Of a stretch of 64,000 bases of DNA, positions 3,224-42,683 are shown one piece after another. The first letter of the stretch is position 1; the number at the start of each line of letters is the position of its first letter. The notes beneath the pieces are model-generated. The model did no database searches and had not been told where the DNA came from. It saw only the letters and a list, made by a program, of their open reading frames with translations. The translations under genes were made by a program, and so were the position numbers. The DNA comes from Synechococcus sp. KORDI-52. Its GTDB lineage: Bacteria; Cyanobacteriota; Cyanobacteriia; PCC-6307; Cyanobiaceae. The DNA is taken from NCBI RefSeq assembly GCF_000737595.1, contig NZ_CP006271.1:2418001-2482000 (forward strand). The letters are read 5' to 3'.

Positions 3224-3631
3224 TCAGTTGATCTCACAGCGGCCTTGACACAGGGTGTCCAGGTCGGCACGCCCGGTGATCTGAAGCCGCCGATCTGCCC
3301 AGATTCCGTAGACCCAATCGACCACGCCACCGATCAGGGGCCAGCGCGTCGGGGCGTACAACCAACCAAAGCCGATAAGTCGGTACGCCTCACGGAAGAC
3401 AGCCACATCACGCAGCACCTCCCCGGAACCAGCAATGGCATGAATGCGGCCCATGGCAACCCGGTAGCTGATGCCGGCATGGGCTTCAGGGTCGTAATCA
3501 GCGGCGTCGATATCGACAAACGCCAGCCGAGCCTGACGATCACGCCGCTGCAGAAAACGAACTTCGCGCACACACAACGGACAACCCCCATCGAAAAGAA
3601 GGGTCAATTCGGGGGCAGAGGGGCTGGCCAT
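3224..3631 (-). CDS. DCC-family thiol-disulfide oxidoreductase (DUF393)
   Basis: The 135-residue protein has the family signature FDGGCPLC near its N-terminus (CxxC redox pair after the DGxC), followed by basic and hydrophobic helices. Known: the DUF393/DCC family is a thioredoxin-like group of putative thiol oxidoreductases; the substrate is unknown. The ATG at 3629-3631 is preferred; an upstream TTG at 3658 would add nine residues and run into the start region of the divergent YjbQ gene. Confidence 0.75.
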   Translation of the reverse strand: MASPSAPELTLLFDGGCPLCVREVRFLQRRDRQARLAFVDIDAADYDPEAHAGISYRVAMGRIHAIAGSGEVLRDVAVFREAYRLIGFGWLYAPTRWPLIGGVVDWVYGIWADRRLQITGRADLDTLCQGRCEIN

Positions 3632-3689
3632 GGGGTCAGACGGAGCTGCAGCACGCAAAGTAAGAAGAGAACGCTGGAGAGCGGTGGGA

Positions 3690-4301
3690 GTGCAGCAGAT
3701 CCTGCATCAGATCTCAGTTGAAACCCCGGGGCGGGGCTTCACCCGTCTGGACGGTCGCTTGAACACCTGGATCCGCAGCACGGGCTTTGAACAGGGCGTG
3801 CTGCACCTCACCTGTCTGCACACCAGTGCAAGCCTCACGATCAACGAGAACGCTGATCCACGGGTGCTGCACGACCTCGATGCATGGATGGCCGATGCCG
3901 TTCCGGAACATCGCCGTTATTCGCATGACGATGAAGGAGCCGATGACATGCCGGCCCACATCCGAACCGCACTGACCAGCCAGACCATGAGCCTGAGCGT
4001 CAGCAGGGGCCAACTGCTGCTGGGCACCTGGCAAGCCGTTTATCTCTGGGAGCACCGCAGCGCTGCTCACACCAGAACGATCGCCTGCCACCTCTTCGGT
4101 GAAGCATCGACCCGCCCCACTCCTGAGAGCAACACCCAGAACAGCTCAGCCACGCCGCAAACCCTGTTGAGCCTGCGCAATGGTGAACGGATCAATCAAG
4201 CCATTCAGGCGCGACACGATCCCAATGCCTGGGAAACCGACGACGGCATCGATACAGACACCGATCTGATGATTGACCGTTTACACGACTTGAGCGACTG
4301 A
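3690..4301 (+). CDS. YjbQ/UPF0047 family protein with C-terminal extension
   Basis: The first ~140 residues match the YjbQ fold: a LHLTCLHTSASLTINENADPR-type segment holding H and N residues of the proposed metal site, a HDDEGADDMPAHI segment, and a closing GTWQAVYLWEHR. Members have been reported to have weak thiamin-phosphate synthase activity; the true role is unsettled. An extra ~60 residues follow, polar and acidic at the end. A GTG start at 3690 is chosen because a GGAGA lies nine bases upstream; GTG at 3684 is possible. Confidence 0.8.
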   Translation: MQQILHQISVETPGRGFTRLDGRLNTWIRSTGFEQGVLHLTCLHTSASLTINENADPRVLHDLDAWMADAVPEHRRYSHDDEGADDMPAHIRTALTSQTMSLSVSRGQLLLGTWQAVYLWEHRSAAHTRTIACHLFGEASTRPTPESNTQNSSATPQTLLSLRNGERINQAIQARHDPNAWETDDGIDTDTDLMIDRLHDLSD

Positions 4302-4432
4302 CAGCTTCGATGCATGGAGCGGGTCACCCGCCGGTCACCTCAAACCAACCGCATTCGACGTTCTGACAGCGCTGTTCACCTGCGGGGAATCACGCTGATC
4401 TGGCTCCACCCGCGAACGCAGGCAACCAGCCA

Positions 4433-4462
4433 TTGCAGAATTCATATAAGAATGATTATCAT
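4433..4462 (+). promoter_or_regulatory. Predicted sigma-70 promoter of the candidate small RNA
   Basis: A TTGCAG at 4433-4438 and a TATCAT at 4457-4462 are separated by 18 bp, which predicts a start of transcription near 4469. The -10 hexamer lies inside the Fur-like palindrome, so repressor binding would block RNA polymerase. Confidence 0.5.
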
Positions 4463-4467
4463 TCTTA
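4447..4467. promoter_or_regulatory. Fur-like operator, perfect 21-bp palindrome
   Basis: The core AAGAATGATTATCATTCTT (4448-4466) is a perfect inverted repeat around one central base, extended by one more pair on each side. It matches the classical 19-bp Fur box at 14 positions and has the same 9-1-9 layout. Zur, a relative with similar AT-rich sites, is an alternative. The site overlaps the -10 of the promoter in front of the candidate small RNA, as expected for iron-dependent repression. Confidence 0.7.
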
Positions 4468-4468
4468 A

Positions 4469-4538
4469 GCGAGCACTATCAGCCAATCTTGTTCGCGTTA
4501 GTCAGCCCCAGCAGGACGCTGCTGAGGCTGCTTTCTTT
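4469..4538 (+). ncRNA. Candidate Fur-controlled small RNA, IsaR1-like layout
   Basis: The predicted transcript is about 70 nt. It begins with a 7-bp hairpin (GCGAGCA 4469-4475 with TGTTCGC 4490-4496, one G-U pair, 14-nt loop), has a short linker (4497-4502), and ends in a terminator hairpin with a T-rich tail. No convincing ORF fits inside. Known: IsaR1 is a roughly 70-nt Fur-repressed RNA made under iron starvation in cyanobacteria. Equating the two is inference from layout, not from sequence comparison. No expression evidence is available here. Confidence 0.5.
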
Positions 4539-4539
4539 T
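4503..4539 (+). terminator. Intrinsic terminator of the candidate small RNA
   Basis: A 12-bp stem (4503-4514 with 4519-4530, one mismatch) and a 4-nt loop are followed by CTTTCTTTT. It is placed to end a transcript from the Fur-box promoter and separates that promoter from downstream ORFs. Confidence 0.65.
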
Positions 4540-4540
4540 C

Positions 4541-4672
4541 CCCCACCTCGAGAAACAGCACTGACAATTGCCCAATGACGTGAATCAAGTCTTCGGACAG
4601 GACTGCAATCCTTTCGCAGGTCATCCACAATGAACTTAAATTCTCAAAGATGAATGAGATAAATAAATAATC
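4541..4672. other. Non-coding AT-rich gap
   Basis: No gene is supported here. AT content rises towards 4672, next to the weak small ORF that follows. Confidence 0.5.
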
Positions 4673-5050: not shown

Positions 5051-5758
5051 CTATACAAAAGTCCCCGACTCCAAAACATCCCCAATCAATTCAATAGTCC
5101 CGGAGTAAAACAAGGACTTTTCAGAACTAAATTCACGACCAAAAAGAGCATTAGACATTGTTACTACTACGGAAAGCTCCAGCACTTTGGCAAGATAACT
5201 CAAACCTCCTTCATCAATAGCAGCAAAAAATCCACTCAACTCCCTAAGCTCCGCCCGATTATTTTCAATAAATTGATCAGCCTCATTTTTCACGATAGAA
5301 GAGTATTTTTTCAATGCAGTACCAACAAACAAGACAATAGTGGCTTCTGAGCCCCTCGCAAAGTTCTGAGCATCACGCTTACTTTCGTCGTCAAGAGGCT
5401 TAAACGTCTCCTGGATAGATATCTGCACTGCTGGAGATTGCATCACCCACATCATTTGACTTTTCAAATCTGCTTCTTCAAAGGTTCCGATTCTGAATTG
5501 GCTTTGAGCCCACAAACTTGCCACAACCAAAGCGACGGAACTTGCTGTTCGAGCACCCATGATTCCGTACTGCCGCAAATGATCCGTCGCTTGCAGAAGG
5601 AGTTGCGACTTTCTCAGAGATTCATCACCCTCGGTAACCGTACATTGTTCCAATTTCTGGTCGCTGACCCATTCAGCAATGGATGCAGCCATCATCACAA
5701 CCGCTTTTTCAAAATTCTCGCGGGATGGCTCTGAATCCTTTCCTGGAGCGTCAAGCAT
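5051..5758 (-). CDS. Hypothetical protein of atypical base composition
   Basis: A 235-residue ORF, ATG start, clearly more AT-rich than its neighbours. The middle part has a hydrophobic stretch (SSVALVVASLWAQ) and the C-terminal half an alternation of charged and hydrophobic residues, suggesting an alpha-helical protein; no catalytic motif is evident and no family was recognised. It stands alone, with a gap of 300 bases upstream. Composition and isolation suggest acquisition by transfer, which is inference. Confidence 0.6.
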   Translation of the reverse strand: MLDAPGKDSEPSRENFEKAVVMMAASIAEWVSDQKLEQCTVTEGDESLRKSQLLLQATDHLRQYGIMGARTASSVALVVASLWAQSQFRIGTFEEADLKSQMMWVMQSPAVQISIQETFKPLDDESKRDAQNFARGSEATIVLFVGTALKKYSSIVKNEADQFIENNRAELRELSGFFAAIDEGGLSYLAKVLELSVVVTMSNALFGREFSSEKSLFYSGTIELIGDVLESGTFV

Positions 5759-6196: not shown

Positions 6197-6476
6197 ACGT
6201 CTCGACGCTGCCCAGAAGTCGGCACTCACCACAGCCCTGCCTAATTGGGTTGTGAACGGAGACAGGCTGCACCTCGATCTGCAGTTCAACAGCTTCGTGG
6301 AGGCCTTTGGATTCATGGCACAGGTGGCCTTGCTGGCCGAATCCAAAAATCACCATCCGAACTGGAGCAACGTCTACAACCGCGTTTCGATCGACCTGAC
6401 CACCCATGATCTCGGCGGCCTCAGCAGCCTTGATGTTGAGCTGGCTGCCGCAATCAACGCGCTGCTGCCAGCATGA
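6186..6476 (+). CDS. phhB: Pterin-4a-carbinolamine dehydratase
   Basis: Small enzyme (96 residues) that dehydrates 4a-hydroxytetrahydropterin, recycling pterin cofactor; it can also act as a molybdopterin or folate-related protein. The family signature is visible: [24 protein letters not shown], in which HHPNW and the later THD carry the active-site histidines. The gene lies 19 bp upstream of the CobW-type gene and is probably co-transcribed with it. Confidence 0.9.
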
Positions 6477-6495
6477 GTTCAGAGGGTTCTTGCCC

Positions 6496-7599
6496 ATGAC
6501 CACTGCACCAGCCACCTCCAACGTCCCCGTCACCATTCTCAGTGGCTTCCTCGGAGCGGGAAAGACCACGTTGCTCAACCACATCCTCACCAACCAGCAT
6601 GGGGTGAAGACCGCGGTACTGGTCAACGAGTTCGGTGAAATCGGCATCGACAACGATCTGATCGTCACCACCGACGAAGACATGGTGGAGCTGAGCAACG
6701 GTTGCATCTGCTGCTCGATCAACGACGAGCTGATGGAGGCGGTGGAACGGGTGATTGAACGCCCCGAGCCGCTCGATTACATCGTCGTCGAAACCACCGG
6801 TCTGGCCGATCCCCTGCCGGTGGCCATGACCTTCCTTGGCAGTGAACTGCGGGATCAAACCCGCCTTGACTCAATCATCACGTTGATCGATGCAGAAAAC
6901 TTCGACGACGTCGTGCTGGATACGGAAGTCGGACGAGCCCAGGTGATCTACGGCGACATCCTGCTGCTGAACAAGTGCGACCTCGTCTCCGAGGAGCGGC
7001 TTGCAGCTGTTGAGCAGAAACTCAGAGACGTCAAGAACGACGCCCGCATTCTGCGATCGGTGAAAGGAGACGTGCCCCTGGCCCTGCTGCTCAGCGTCGG
7101 ACTGTTCGAATCCGACAAGGTGAGTGCCCCCTCCGACGATCCGAGCCTGGAACACAGTGACTGCGACCACGACCATGGCCACTGCAGCCATGACCACGAA
7201 CACGGCCATGAAAACGGGCACGATCACGGTCATGACCACAGCCATCACCACGGACACCATCACCACAACCACAGCCATGGTGATCAGGAGGACATCGAGG
7301 GATTCACCTCCGTGTCCTTCCAAAGTGATGGCCCCTTCTCCTTGCGCAAGTTCCAGAATTTCTTGGACAACCAGATGCCTCAGGAGGTCTTCCGTGCCAA
7401 AGGAGTCTTGTGGTTCAACGAAAGCGAACGCCGCCACGTGTTTCATCTGGCGGGCAAGCGCTTCTCCATCGACGACACCGACTGGACCGGTGATCGCAAA
7501 AACCAACTGGTGCTGATCGGCCGAGACATCGACCACAGCACCTTGAGGGAGCAACTCCAGGCCTGTGTGGCACCGGATGCAGGGAAAGGTTTCACCTGA
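6496..7599 (+). CDS. CobW/ZNG-type GTPase metallochaperone
   Basis: G3E-family GTPase of 367 residues that delivers a metal (zinc or cobalt are the known cargoes) to client proteins. Visible: Walker A GFLGAGKTTLL at 17-27, the metal-binding CICC at 70-73, the guanine-specificity NKCD at 159-162, a very His-rich linker at about 220-262, and the C-terminal CobW domain. The ATG at 6496 is chosen because the upstream frame overlaps phhB. The metal cannot be told from sequence; an adjacent pterin enzyme and the Fur/Zur-like site 2 kb upstream are suggestive at most. Confidence 0.9.
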   Translation: MTTAPATSNVPVTILSGFLGAGKTTLLNHILTNQHGVKTAVLVNEFGEIGIDNDLIVTTDEDMVELSNGCICCSINDELMEAVERVIERPEPLDYIVVETTGLADPLPVAMTFLGSELRDQTRLDSIITLIDAENFDDVVLDTEVGRAQVIYGDILLLNKCDLVSEERLAAVEQKLRDVKNDARILRSVKGDVPLALLLSVGLFESDKVSAPSDDPSLEHSDCDHDHGHCSHDHEHGHENGHDHGHDHSHHHGHHHHNHSHGDQEDIEGFTSVSFQSDGPFSLRKFQNFLDNQMPQEVFRAKGVLWFNESERRHVFHLAGKRFSIDDTDWTGDRKNQLVLIGRDIDHSTLREQLQACVAPDAGKGFT

Positions 7600-41172: not shown

Positions 41173-41709
41173 ATGACCCAACTCTCCTCGAGCGATGTGC
41201 CCGGAATGGGTCGTCGGCAGTTCATGAACCTGCTGACCTTCGGCTCCGTGACAGGGGTTGCCCTGGGAGCCCTCTACCCGGTTGCGAACTACTTCATCCC
41301 CCCCAAGGCCGCCGGCAGCGGTGGTGGCACTAGTGCCAAGGATGAGCTGGGCAACCCGATCACGGCCAGTGGCTGGCTCTCCAGCCACCCCGAGGGCGAT
41401 CGCAGCCTGGTGCAGGGCCTCAAGGGTGATCCCACCTATCTGATCGTTGAAGGCGAGGACGCCATCGGCAGCTACGGCATCAACGCCATTTGCACTCACC
41501 TCGGTTGCGTCGTTCCCTGGAACAGCGGTGCCAACAAGTTCATGTGCCCTTGCCATGGCAGTCAGTACGACGCCACCGGCAAGGTGGTTCGTGGCCCTGC
41601 CCCTCTCTCCCTGGCCCTGGCCAACGTCAGCGTGGAGAACGACAACGTGTTCGTGAGCCAGTGGACCGAGACCGACTTCCGAACTGGTGATAAGCCCTGG
41701 TGGGCCTGA
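41173..41709 (+). CDS. petC: Cytochrome b6f Rieske iron-sulfur protein
   Basis: [2Fe-2S] subunit that takes an electron from plastoquinol and passes it to cytochrome f. The 178 residues have a twin-arginine N-terminus ([17 protein letters not shown]), one membrane helix, and ligands in CTHLGC (C107, H109) and CPCHG (C125, H128) with the cysteine pair C112/C127. ATG at 41173. petA follows 38 bp later. Confidence 0.95.
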
Positions 41710-41747
41710 TTCTTCCCTCCCCTACGCCTGCATCCCCTCACCGTCCC

Positions 41748-42683
41748 ATGCGTCGTCACCTCTCGCTTTTCCTTGGATCGCTGGTCATCGGACTGGCTCT
41801 GCTGATTGCCCCGGCCGCCAGCTGGGCCTACCCCTTCTGGGCTCAACAGAACTACGACAGCCCCCGGGAAGCCACCGGCAAGATTGTTTGTGCCAACTGC
41901 CACCTGGCCAAAAAGCTGACCCAGGCTGAAGTTCCCCAATCGGTCCTTCCTGACAGCGTCTTCACCGCCAGCGTCAAGGTTCCCTATGAGAACGGTCTCC
42001 AAGAGATCGGTGCCGACGGCAGCGACGTGGGCCTGCAAGTGGGCGCTGTTGTGATGCTTCCCGATGGCTTCACCCTTGCTCCTCAGGACCGCTGGACCGA
42101 TGAGATCAAGGAGGAGACGGAAGGCGTCTACTTCACCCAGTACAGCGACGACCAGCCGAACATCCTTCTGGTAGGACCGATTCCTGGTGATGAGCACCAA
42201 GAGATTGTCTTCCCTGTTCTGTCACCAGATCCCGCCACCGACAGCAACATCCACTTCGGCAAATACCAGATCCACGTGGGTGGCAACCGCGGCCGTGGCC
42301 AGGTGTATCCCACCGGTGAGAAGAGCAACAACACCGTCTACACAGCTCCGGCCAGCGGCACCATTGCCTCCATCGAGCCCAGTGACAACGGGGCCAGCGT
42401 GGTCAGTATCGAGGCTGCTGACGGCAGTAACGTGAGCGAGACCATTCCGGTTGGTCCTGAAGTTCTGGTCAGCGTCGGCGACAGCATCGAAGCCGGTGCT
42501 GCCCTAACCAACGACCCCAACGTGGGCGGCTTCGGGCAGGTCGATGCGGAAATCGTTCTGCAGAACCCCGTTCGGATCTATGGCTTGCTCGCCTTCTTCG
42601 CGGCTGTGGCTCTGGCACAGATCATGTTGGTGCTGAAGAAGAAGCAGATTGAGAAAGTTCAGGCTGCTGAAGGCAACTTCTGA
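41748..42683 (+). CDS. petA: Apocytochrome f
   Basis: Lumenal c-type cytochrome of the b6f complex, electron donor to plastocyanin or cytochrome c6. The 311-residue precursor has a signal peptide ending SWA before Y28 (YPFWAQQ), whose amino group is the axial heme ligand in the family; the heme motif CANCH lies at 48-52. A C-terminal helix ([16 protein letters not shown]) anchors it. petC-petA order is standard. Confidence 0.95.

Follow-up and report, generated by a model that had tools for sequence, protein, structure and literature searches.

A Candidate Zur-Switched Small RNA Gene in a Few Marine Synechococcus Genomes

The Locus and Its Neighborhood

The element considered here lies in the complete genome of Synechococcus sp. 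KORDI-52 (2,572,069 bases; hereafter G000), within a 64-kb window, that is, the whole stretch of DNA that was analysed and in which coordinates are counted unless a locus is named. The upstream gene on the same strand (3630–4301, +) encodes a UPF0047 (YjbQ) family protein (PF01894, 121.9 bits), and a close relative of this gene is adjacent to the element in G014, which together with G022 makes up the two other carriers of the element in the genus. The downstream gene in the ORF list (5051–5758) runs on the strand opposite to the element and encodes a protein of 235 aa, for which the Pfam search gave no match. In G014, too, the first gene downstream of the element is oppositely oriented.

Further downstream, a His-rich GTPase of the COG0523/CobW family (PF02492/PF07683) is encoded at 6406–7599 (+). 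Its top name in NCBIfam is the zinc metallochaperone ZigA, at 209 bits and under the cut-off of 600. This gene is located 2 kb from the element in the window and near it in G014 too; the tie between the two is neighborhood alone, and no operator-like box within two core mismatches was found before the GTPase gene. In addition, petC (41173–41709) and petA (41700–42683) were found in the window, as a preliminary description of this DNA had stated. The futB-futC pair named in the same description is a plausible reading, although the ATPase stays under every NCBIfam cut-off among the 25 families shown.

Promoter, Operator, and Predicted Fold

In the preliminary description, a promoter, a Fur box, a hairpin, a linker, and a terminator were taken together as an IsaR1-like gene of the iron-stress response. 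The presence of these parts in the window is confirmed. The −35 element TTGCAG (4433–4438, +) and the −10 element TATCAT (4457–4462, +), both read directly from the sequence, are separated by 18 bp just as described, and the latter is identical in G014 and G022. The −10 element lies within a perfect 19-bp palindrome, AAGAATGATTATCATTCTT (4448–4466), a putative Zur-type operator whose core is the same in both homologues. This is the sole perfect 9-1-9 palindrome across the 64-kb window; a dinucleotide model gives an expectation of 0.0003 occurrences of its core, AATGATWATCATT, on one strand, and the 19-mer palindrome was found within three mismatches in none of 100 shuffles.

The predicted small RNA of ~66–70 nt (4469–4538, +) has its start placed by the −10 spacing alone. 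It scores 98.6 bits with R1, a covariance model made from the three copies in the window, G014, and G022, the window sequence thus being one of those used to build it. The 5′ hairpin (4469–4496, +) is formed by 4469–4475 paired with 4490–4496 around a 14-nt loop (4476–4489; CTATCAGCCAATCT), a candidate seed. It is followed by a 6-nt linker, GTTAGT (4497–4502, +), in which two of the six positions vary among the copies, and by the terminator (4503–4538, +), with a stem of 4503–4514 paired with 4519–4530, a GACG loop, and a T-rich tail. The predicted fold of 74 nt from 4468 (−30.2 kcal/mol, z −4.15) contains the 7-bp hairpin and short linker that had been described, and its stability was equalled by none of 200 shuffles. 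The terminator also stands, though not with the 12 bp first ascribed to it: one of the 12 stem positions is a C·A mismatch in the window, leaving 11 pairs, and this position is paired in both homologues.

A generic promoter and terminator scan of the window reported neither the promoter nor the terminator of the element, probably because of the weak −35 element and the interrupted stem and T-run. Therefore, the case for the element rests on the operator and on conservation. In Rfam, nothing in the region reached the gathering score, the best weak match being Spot 42 (14.9 bits vs. 80).

Homologues and Conservation

A blastn search with 126 bases against 34 genomes of the genus matched nine of them. 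The element itself was found only in its own genome, in G014 (83%), and in G022 (84%), the remaining matched genomes giving short pieces; two of the 33 other genus genomes searched thus carry homologues that are alike in box, spacing, and fold. R1 with laxer filters gave the same three carriers among the 34 genomes. At E 10, some match appeared in 27 of the 34, the best non-carrier having E 0.047. These weak matches were taken as chance; those with a fetched locus (L164–L190), of which L164 alone was inspected by eye, have no operator core within two mismatches nearby. Searches of the family and the class used stricter filters, by which weak matches may be lost. R1 matched four of 400 family genomes and 10 of 291 class genomes; the fourth family match (L014) and eight of the class matches (L018–L025), the other two being carriers, had no operator core within two mismatches nearby and were judged to be chance. 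Phage records gave one 21-base match and plasmid records none. The sole pattern match in IMG/VR (L332) was also discarded: it lies in a coding region and matches only model positions 6–23.

Among the three copies, promoter spacing and the box core are kept. The −35 element is TTGCAA in G014 and TTGTGG in G022, each 18 bp from TATCAT as counted by eye. In the 5′ hairpin, six of the seven pairs are invariant and the remaining one is A-U or G-U. In the terminator, two of the 12 pairs are changed on both sides and 97.2% of cells are paired. Sliding the pairing by one to three columns lowers the paired fraction from 98% to 33–53%, while the covariation, with three sequences only, is within the range of column shuffles (131 of 500 reach it). 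The folds of the other two copies have z-scores of −3.4 and −3.3, with zero and three of 200 shuffles as good, respectively. Retention in relatives, a point raised in the preliminary description, is thus seen in G014 and G022 for both the palindrome and the terminator fold, the element being present in 3 of 34 genus genomes. A short, independently terminated, metal-switched small RNA is the reading supported by the box, promoter spacing, hairpin sequence, and predicted terminator fold conserved in two genomes.

The carriers fall within one 12-genome clade (100/100) of a tree made from crtH DNA of 22 of the 34 genus genomes. Their pattern on this tree needs three changes of state; for example, G030, the sister of G022, is without the element. 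In G000 and G014 the element is located beside yjbQ, with neighbors alike over several kb, while in G022 it is found ~1.2 kb downstream of crtH. This distribution would fit loss, transfer, or movement of the element alike.

Coding Potential and a Possible Remnant

An ORF of 89 aa (4314–4583, +) crosses the element. In the window, its frame can be read without a stop across the element from an ATG at 4452, which falls in the box, and the same holds for G022 (55 aa). At the G014 site, no ORF of at least 80 aa was reported on that strand. The ATG at 4452 precedes the point where the RNA is predicted to start, and the variable columns of the three copies, 18 in all, are spread over codon positions 1, 2, and 3 as 5, 7, and 6; given these two points, there is no sign of coding. 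The 70-nt RNA itself contains no ATG and no GTG, and one TTG, in agreement with the earlier statement that it holds no convincing ORF.

These data bear on the possibility that the element is not a functional small RNA: it could be what is left, operator and terminator, of a gene since lost, or it could encode a small peptide or be the leader of such a gene. The open frame, the patchy presence in 3 of 34 genomes scattered in the 12-genome clade, and the fact that no targets are established are points in favor of such a possibility. Against it, the element retains its promoter, box, and hairpin in two distinct genomic locations. The three copies have six variable columns in the first 34 positions and nine in the 28 terminator positions; pairwise, the 5′ part differs at 3–5 of 34 positions and the terminator at 5–7 of 28, with pairing kept. 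The position of the ATG, the absence of codon-position bias, and the opposite orientation of the next downstream gene in G000 and G014 also argue against a coding or leader role. We regard a remnant, peptide gene, or leader as unlikely.

Comparison with IsaR1

IsaR1 is 68 nt long (PMC6202907), and its pairing targets include petABDC1, sufBCDS, sodB, fed1, and other mRNAs (PMC8136909). In a review (PMC13414033), upp and crtH are named as targets alongside IsaR1, a wording that may mean that they are the neighbors of IsaR1. Among eight crtH loci from cyanobacteria outside the family, six carry a terminator-ended element of ~65–72 nt just upstream of crtH; of the other two, one has its element truncated where the locus ends and one has no element in reach. 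In the crtH locus L149, the nearest promoter-like sequence is further upstream. A core, GTGTTCTCCTCTC(TTT)AAGGA, is nearly invariant across the six loci. This IsaR1 set is defined by position, length, promoter, and wide conservation and not by a published IsaR1 sequence; a search by pattern (ATCATT and a T-run) in Synechocystis salina was too noisy, and position beside crtH was used instead.

At E 0.01, a covariance model of the crtH-upstream set (R2) matched 121 of 291 class genomes, none of the matched rows being from the family of the window. In 400 family genomes it gave three weak matches, the best at E 0.014 and all of them within a single genus other than that of the window; by eye, two of them (L156 and L157) have part of the core-like letters and L158 has none, and no operator core was found within two mismatches near any of the three. 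R2 revealed no IsaR1 at crtH in 22 genus genomes, and no match lies alongside crtH of the window's own genome (G000:1470035, locus L136). IsaR1 appears widespread in the class, yet 400 genomes of this picocyanobacterial family yielded no more than three weak matches, which may reflect a clade-wide loss. Given this apparent lack in most of the family, one may ask whether anything takes the place of IsaR1 there, and what that would be.

The identity with IsaR1 proposed in the preliminary description is not borne out. R2 gave no match around 4469 even with filters off, R1 gave none in 12 IsaR1-holding loci (one only partly covered), and the core GTGTTCTCCTCTC(TTT)AAGGA is absent from 4469–4538; with both cross-searches empty, the window RNA does not belong to IsaR1, of which no copy was found in the genus. 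Searches against picocyanobacteria and IsaR1, in line with the check that had been suggested, thus yield homologues in G014 and G022 and no match to the position-defined IsaR1 set. A true but very divergent orthologue would account for the similar layout and length class, and for the G022 element ~1.2 kb downstream of crtH, IsaR1 being elsewhere upstream of this gene. However, that is the wrong side of crtH, the element is beside yjbQ in two of the three genomes, and the missing C/U-rich core and different operator, together with the empty searches in both directions, make such an orthologue very improbable.

In its predicted length class (66–70 vs. ~68 nt; PMC6202907), its own predicted promoter under a Fur-family operator, and its predicted rho-independent end, the window element resembles IsaR1. 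If the small RNA reading holds, base-pairing would be a further likeness, IsaR1 being a base-pairing repressor of metalloproteins. Unlike IsaR1, the element has no anti-Shine-Dalgarno-like C/U core and no shared sequence, its operator is different, and the window copy sits between yjbQ and the 235-aa gene, not upstream of crtH. The distributions differ as well: IsaR1 occurs in 121 of 291 class genomes and was not found in the genus of the window, where the window-type RNA occurs in 3 of 34 genomes.

Zur or Fur as the Regulator

A near-identical box is found in the own genome between the divergent znuA and znuC-znuB (L338 9979–9997; G000:1530478–1530496). It has one mismatch to the window box in the 13-mer core and 14 of 19 identical positions by count. 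The znuC-znuB pair is read from an ABC ATPase and an ABC-3 permease, and one Zur-type box is common to both divergent units. Exact cores also separate znuA from its neighbor in two other genomes, the neighbor being a COG0523 GTPase gene in G017 and an ABC ATPase gene in G029. In S. salina, there are three such places: one in the space shared by znuA and a Fur-family gene, which is read as zur, one ahead of a COG0523 gene, and one ahead of hemB, behind which a COG0523-like ORF is seen by eye; these loci are a sample, a loose pattern giving 194 places of which the first ones and a few picked by box sequence were used. COG0523 proteins and hemB regulation have known roles in relation to zinc.

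Altogether, among fetched loci with sRNA copies excluded and repeats merged, the 13-mer core was found at zero or one mismatch in 10 other places, six of which are beside znuA, zur, COG0523, or hemB genes. The other four are a formamidase intergenic space (L004), an OprB porin promoter (L107), an ORF end (L109), and the inside of a porin ORF (L122). At L004 1505 (G018), 119 nt separate the box from an FmdA-type formamidase gene downstream of it, and a second formamidase gene precedes the box. At L107 1501 (S. salina), it is upstream of the OprB porin gene, near an ORF read as psaL, and the porin is possibly metal-controlled.

With a matrix from eight sites at the six zinc-type places, the window box scores 25.7 and the sites themselves 18.6–26.8. 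The next best place in the window reaches 10.3; the top scores in the upstream stretches of six IsaR1 copies range over 1.6–13.4, and those in 20 one-strand single-base shuffles over 5.5–15.3. These scores are partly circular because the sites were found by likeness to the window box; the informative part of the operator evidence is the neighboring genes.

Three Fur-family proteins are encoded in the genome. The L333 protein is the likely Fur. The one at L335 9468–9911 is nearest to the znuA-linked regulator of S. salina (38% over 129 aa), the other two having 31% over 115 and 27% over 90. It matches PDB 7ne9 (E 6e-64; record name, Ferric uptake regulator family), which we take to be a marine Synechococcus Zur. 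In NCBIfam, its best match is PerR (56.7 bits, cut-off 180), with 19.6 bits vs. 167 for Zur, and the S. salina regulator reaches no NCBIfam cut-off. The genome thus appears to encode a Zur-like protein, though NCBIfam does not name it so.

As to the Fur box of the preliminary description, the palindrome is perfect, while its assignment to Fur is not supported, zinc genes adjoining like boxes. Fur-family operators resemble one another, and by count the palindrome matches the general Fur-box consensus at 14 or 15 of 19 positions. A Fur-controlled iron-stress RNA, unrelated to IsaR1 or RyhB in sequence and working like them, would fit this match, the petC-petA genes and the possible fut transporter in the window, the room for a replacement where IsaR1 was not found, and the box at the S. 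salina porin promoter. Against these points stand the box at the own znuA/znuCB and at five other zinc-type loci, and the IsaR1 promoters, which are without the box and score far lower. We consider such an iron-stress RNA improbable, though somewhat less so than a remnant or peptide gene. The operator is probably Zur's, which fits better than Fur's; a switch resembling that of zinc-uptake genes points to a regulator of zinc shortage rather than to an iron-stress RNA.

The likeness of the window operator to the own znuA/znuCB operator recalls the Zur regulon of marine Synechococcus (PMC9337993). The regulon members met here (znuA, znuCB, COG0523, and hemB) are protein genes, unlike the window element, which would be an RNA member.

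Proposed Function and Candidate Targets

Our preferred reading, to which we give a probability of about two in three, is a free-standing, lineage-restricted gene for a trans-acting small RNA of ~66–70 nt that is switched by Zur and induced by zinc shortage. When zinc is sufficient, zinc-loaded Zur would bind the palindrome over the −10 element and block the promoter, as at znuA/znuCB. When zinc is low, the promoter would open and the small RNA would be made, and it could then base-pair with mRNAs via the conserved 5′ hairpin and 14-nt loop. The most likely outcome would be less synthesis of dispensable zinc proteins, that is, zinc sparing.

RyhB and PrrF are Fur-repressed iron-sparing small RNAs of proteobacteria. 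The proposed RNA would be like them in having a metal-loaded repressor over the promoter and in being made on starvation, and unlike them in that the metal is zinc and not iron; relatedness was tested by Rfam alone, with no gathering score reached. More tentatively, with somewhat less than an even chance in our estimate, it may be to zinc starvation what RyhB and IsaR1 are to iron starvation, namely a trans-acting, zinc-sparing RNA repressed by Zur and gained or kept by a few marine Synechococcus strains in a lineage without detectable IsaR1. If so, the logic of metal starvation established for iron would hold for zinc as well. A literature search by title, with subscription papers mostly outside its scope, found no Zur-controlled trans-acting small RNA in cyanobacteria.

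G000, G014, and G022 contain 57, 53, and 55 copies, respectively, of ATTGGYTGA, the complement of the loop, against 7, 14, and 7 of its backward control; the excess may be explained by codon bias. Places were sifted for nearby ORF starts: 55 in G000 (all those outside the small RNA and the window), 52 in G014 (all outside the small RNA), and 39 of 54 in G022. Within this scope, the seed-complement search in the three carriers gave no convincing target site, and visual inspection of the seed matches near starts revealed no iron-protein gene, a result that speaks against Fur control. So do the starts of petC and petA, the only IsaR1-type targets tested, whose predicted duplexes are weak (−12.3 and −18.0 kcal/mol vs. 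−29.0 for the top-ranking ORF start of the window, all ignoring accessibility). Thus, petC and petA are not supported as targets of the window RNA.

Two further sites are recorded here and are not claimed as targets. One is located 45 nt before the start of a thrS-like ORF in G000 and G014; the product of thrS is a zinc enzyme, and conservation of the site is not independent evidence because the same DNA appears to code for the first part of a divergent gene. The other, not seen in G000, is a perfect complement of the loop middle at the start of an ORF read by eye as rnpA-like in G014 (L327 889) and G022 (L272 885), with a preceding spacer that differs between the two.
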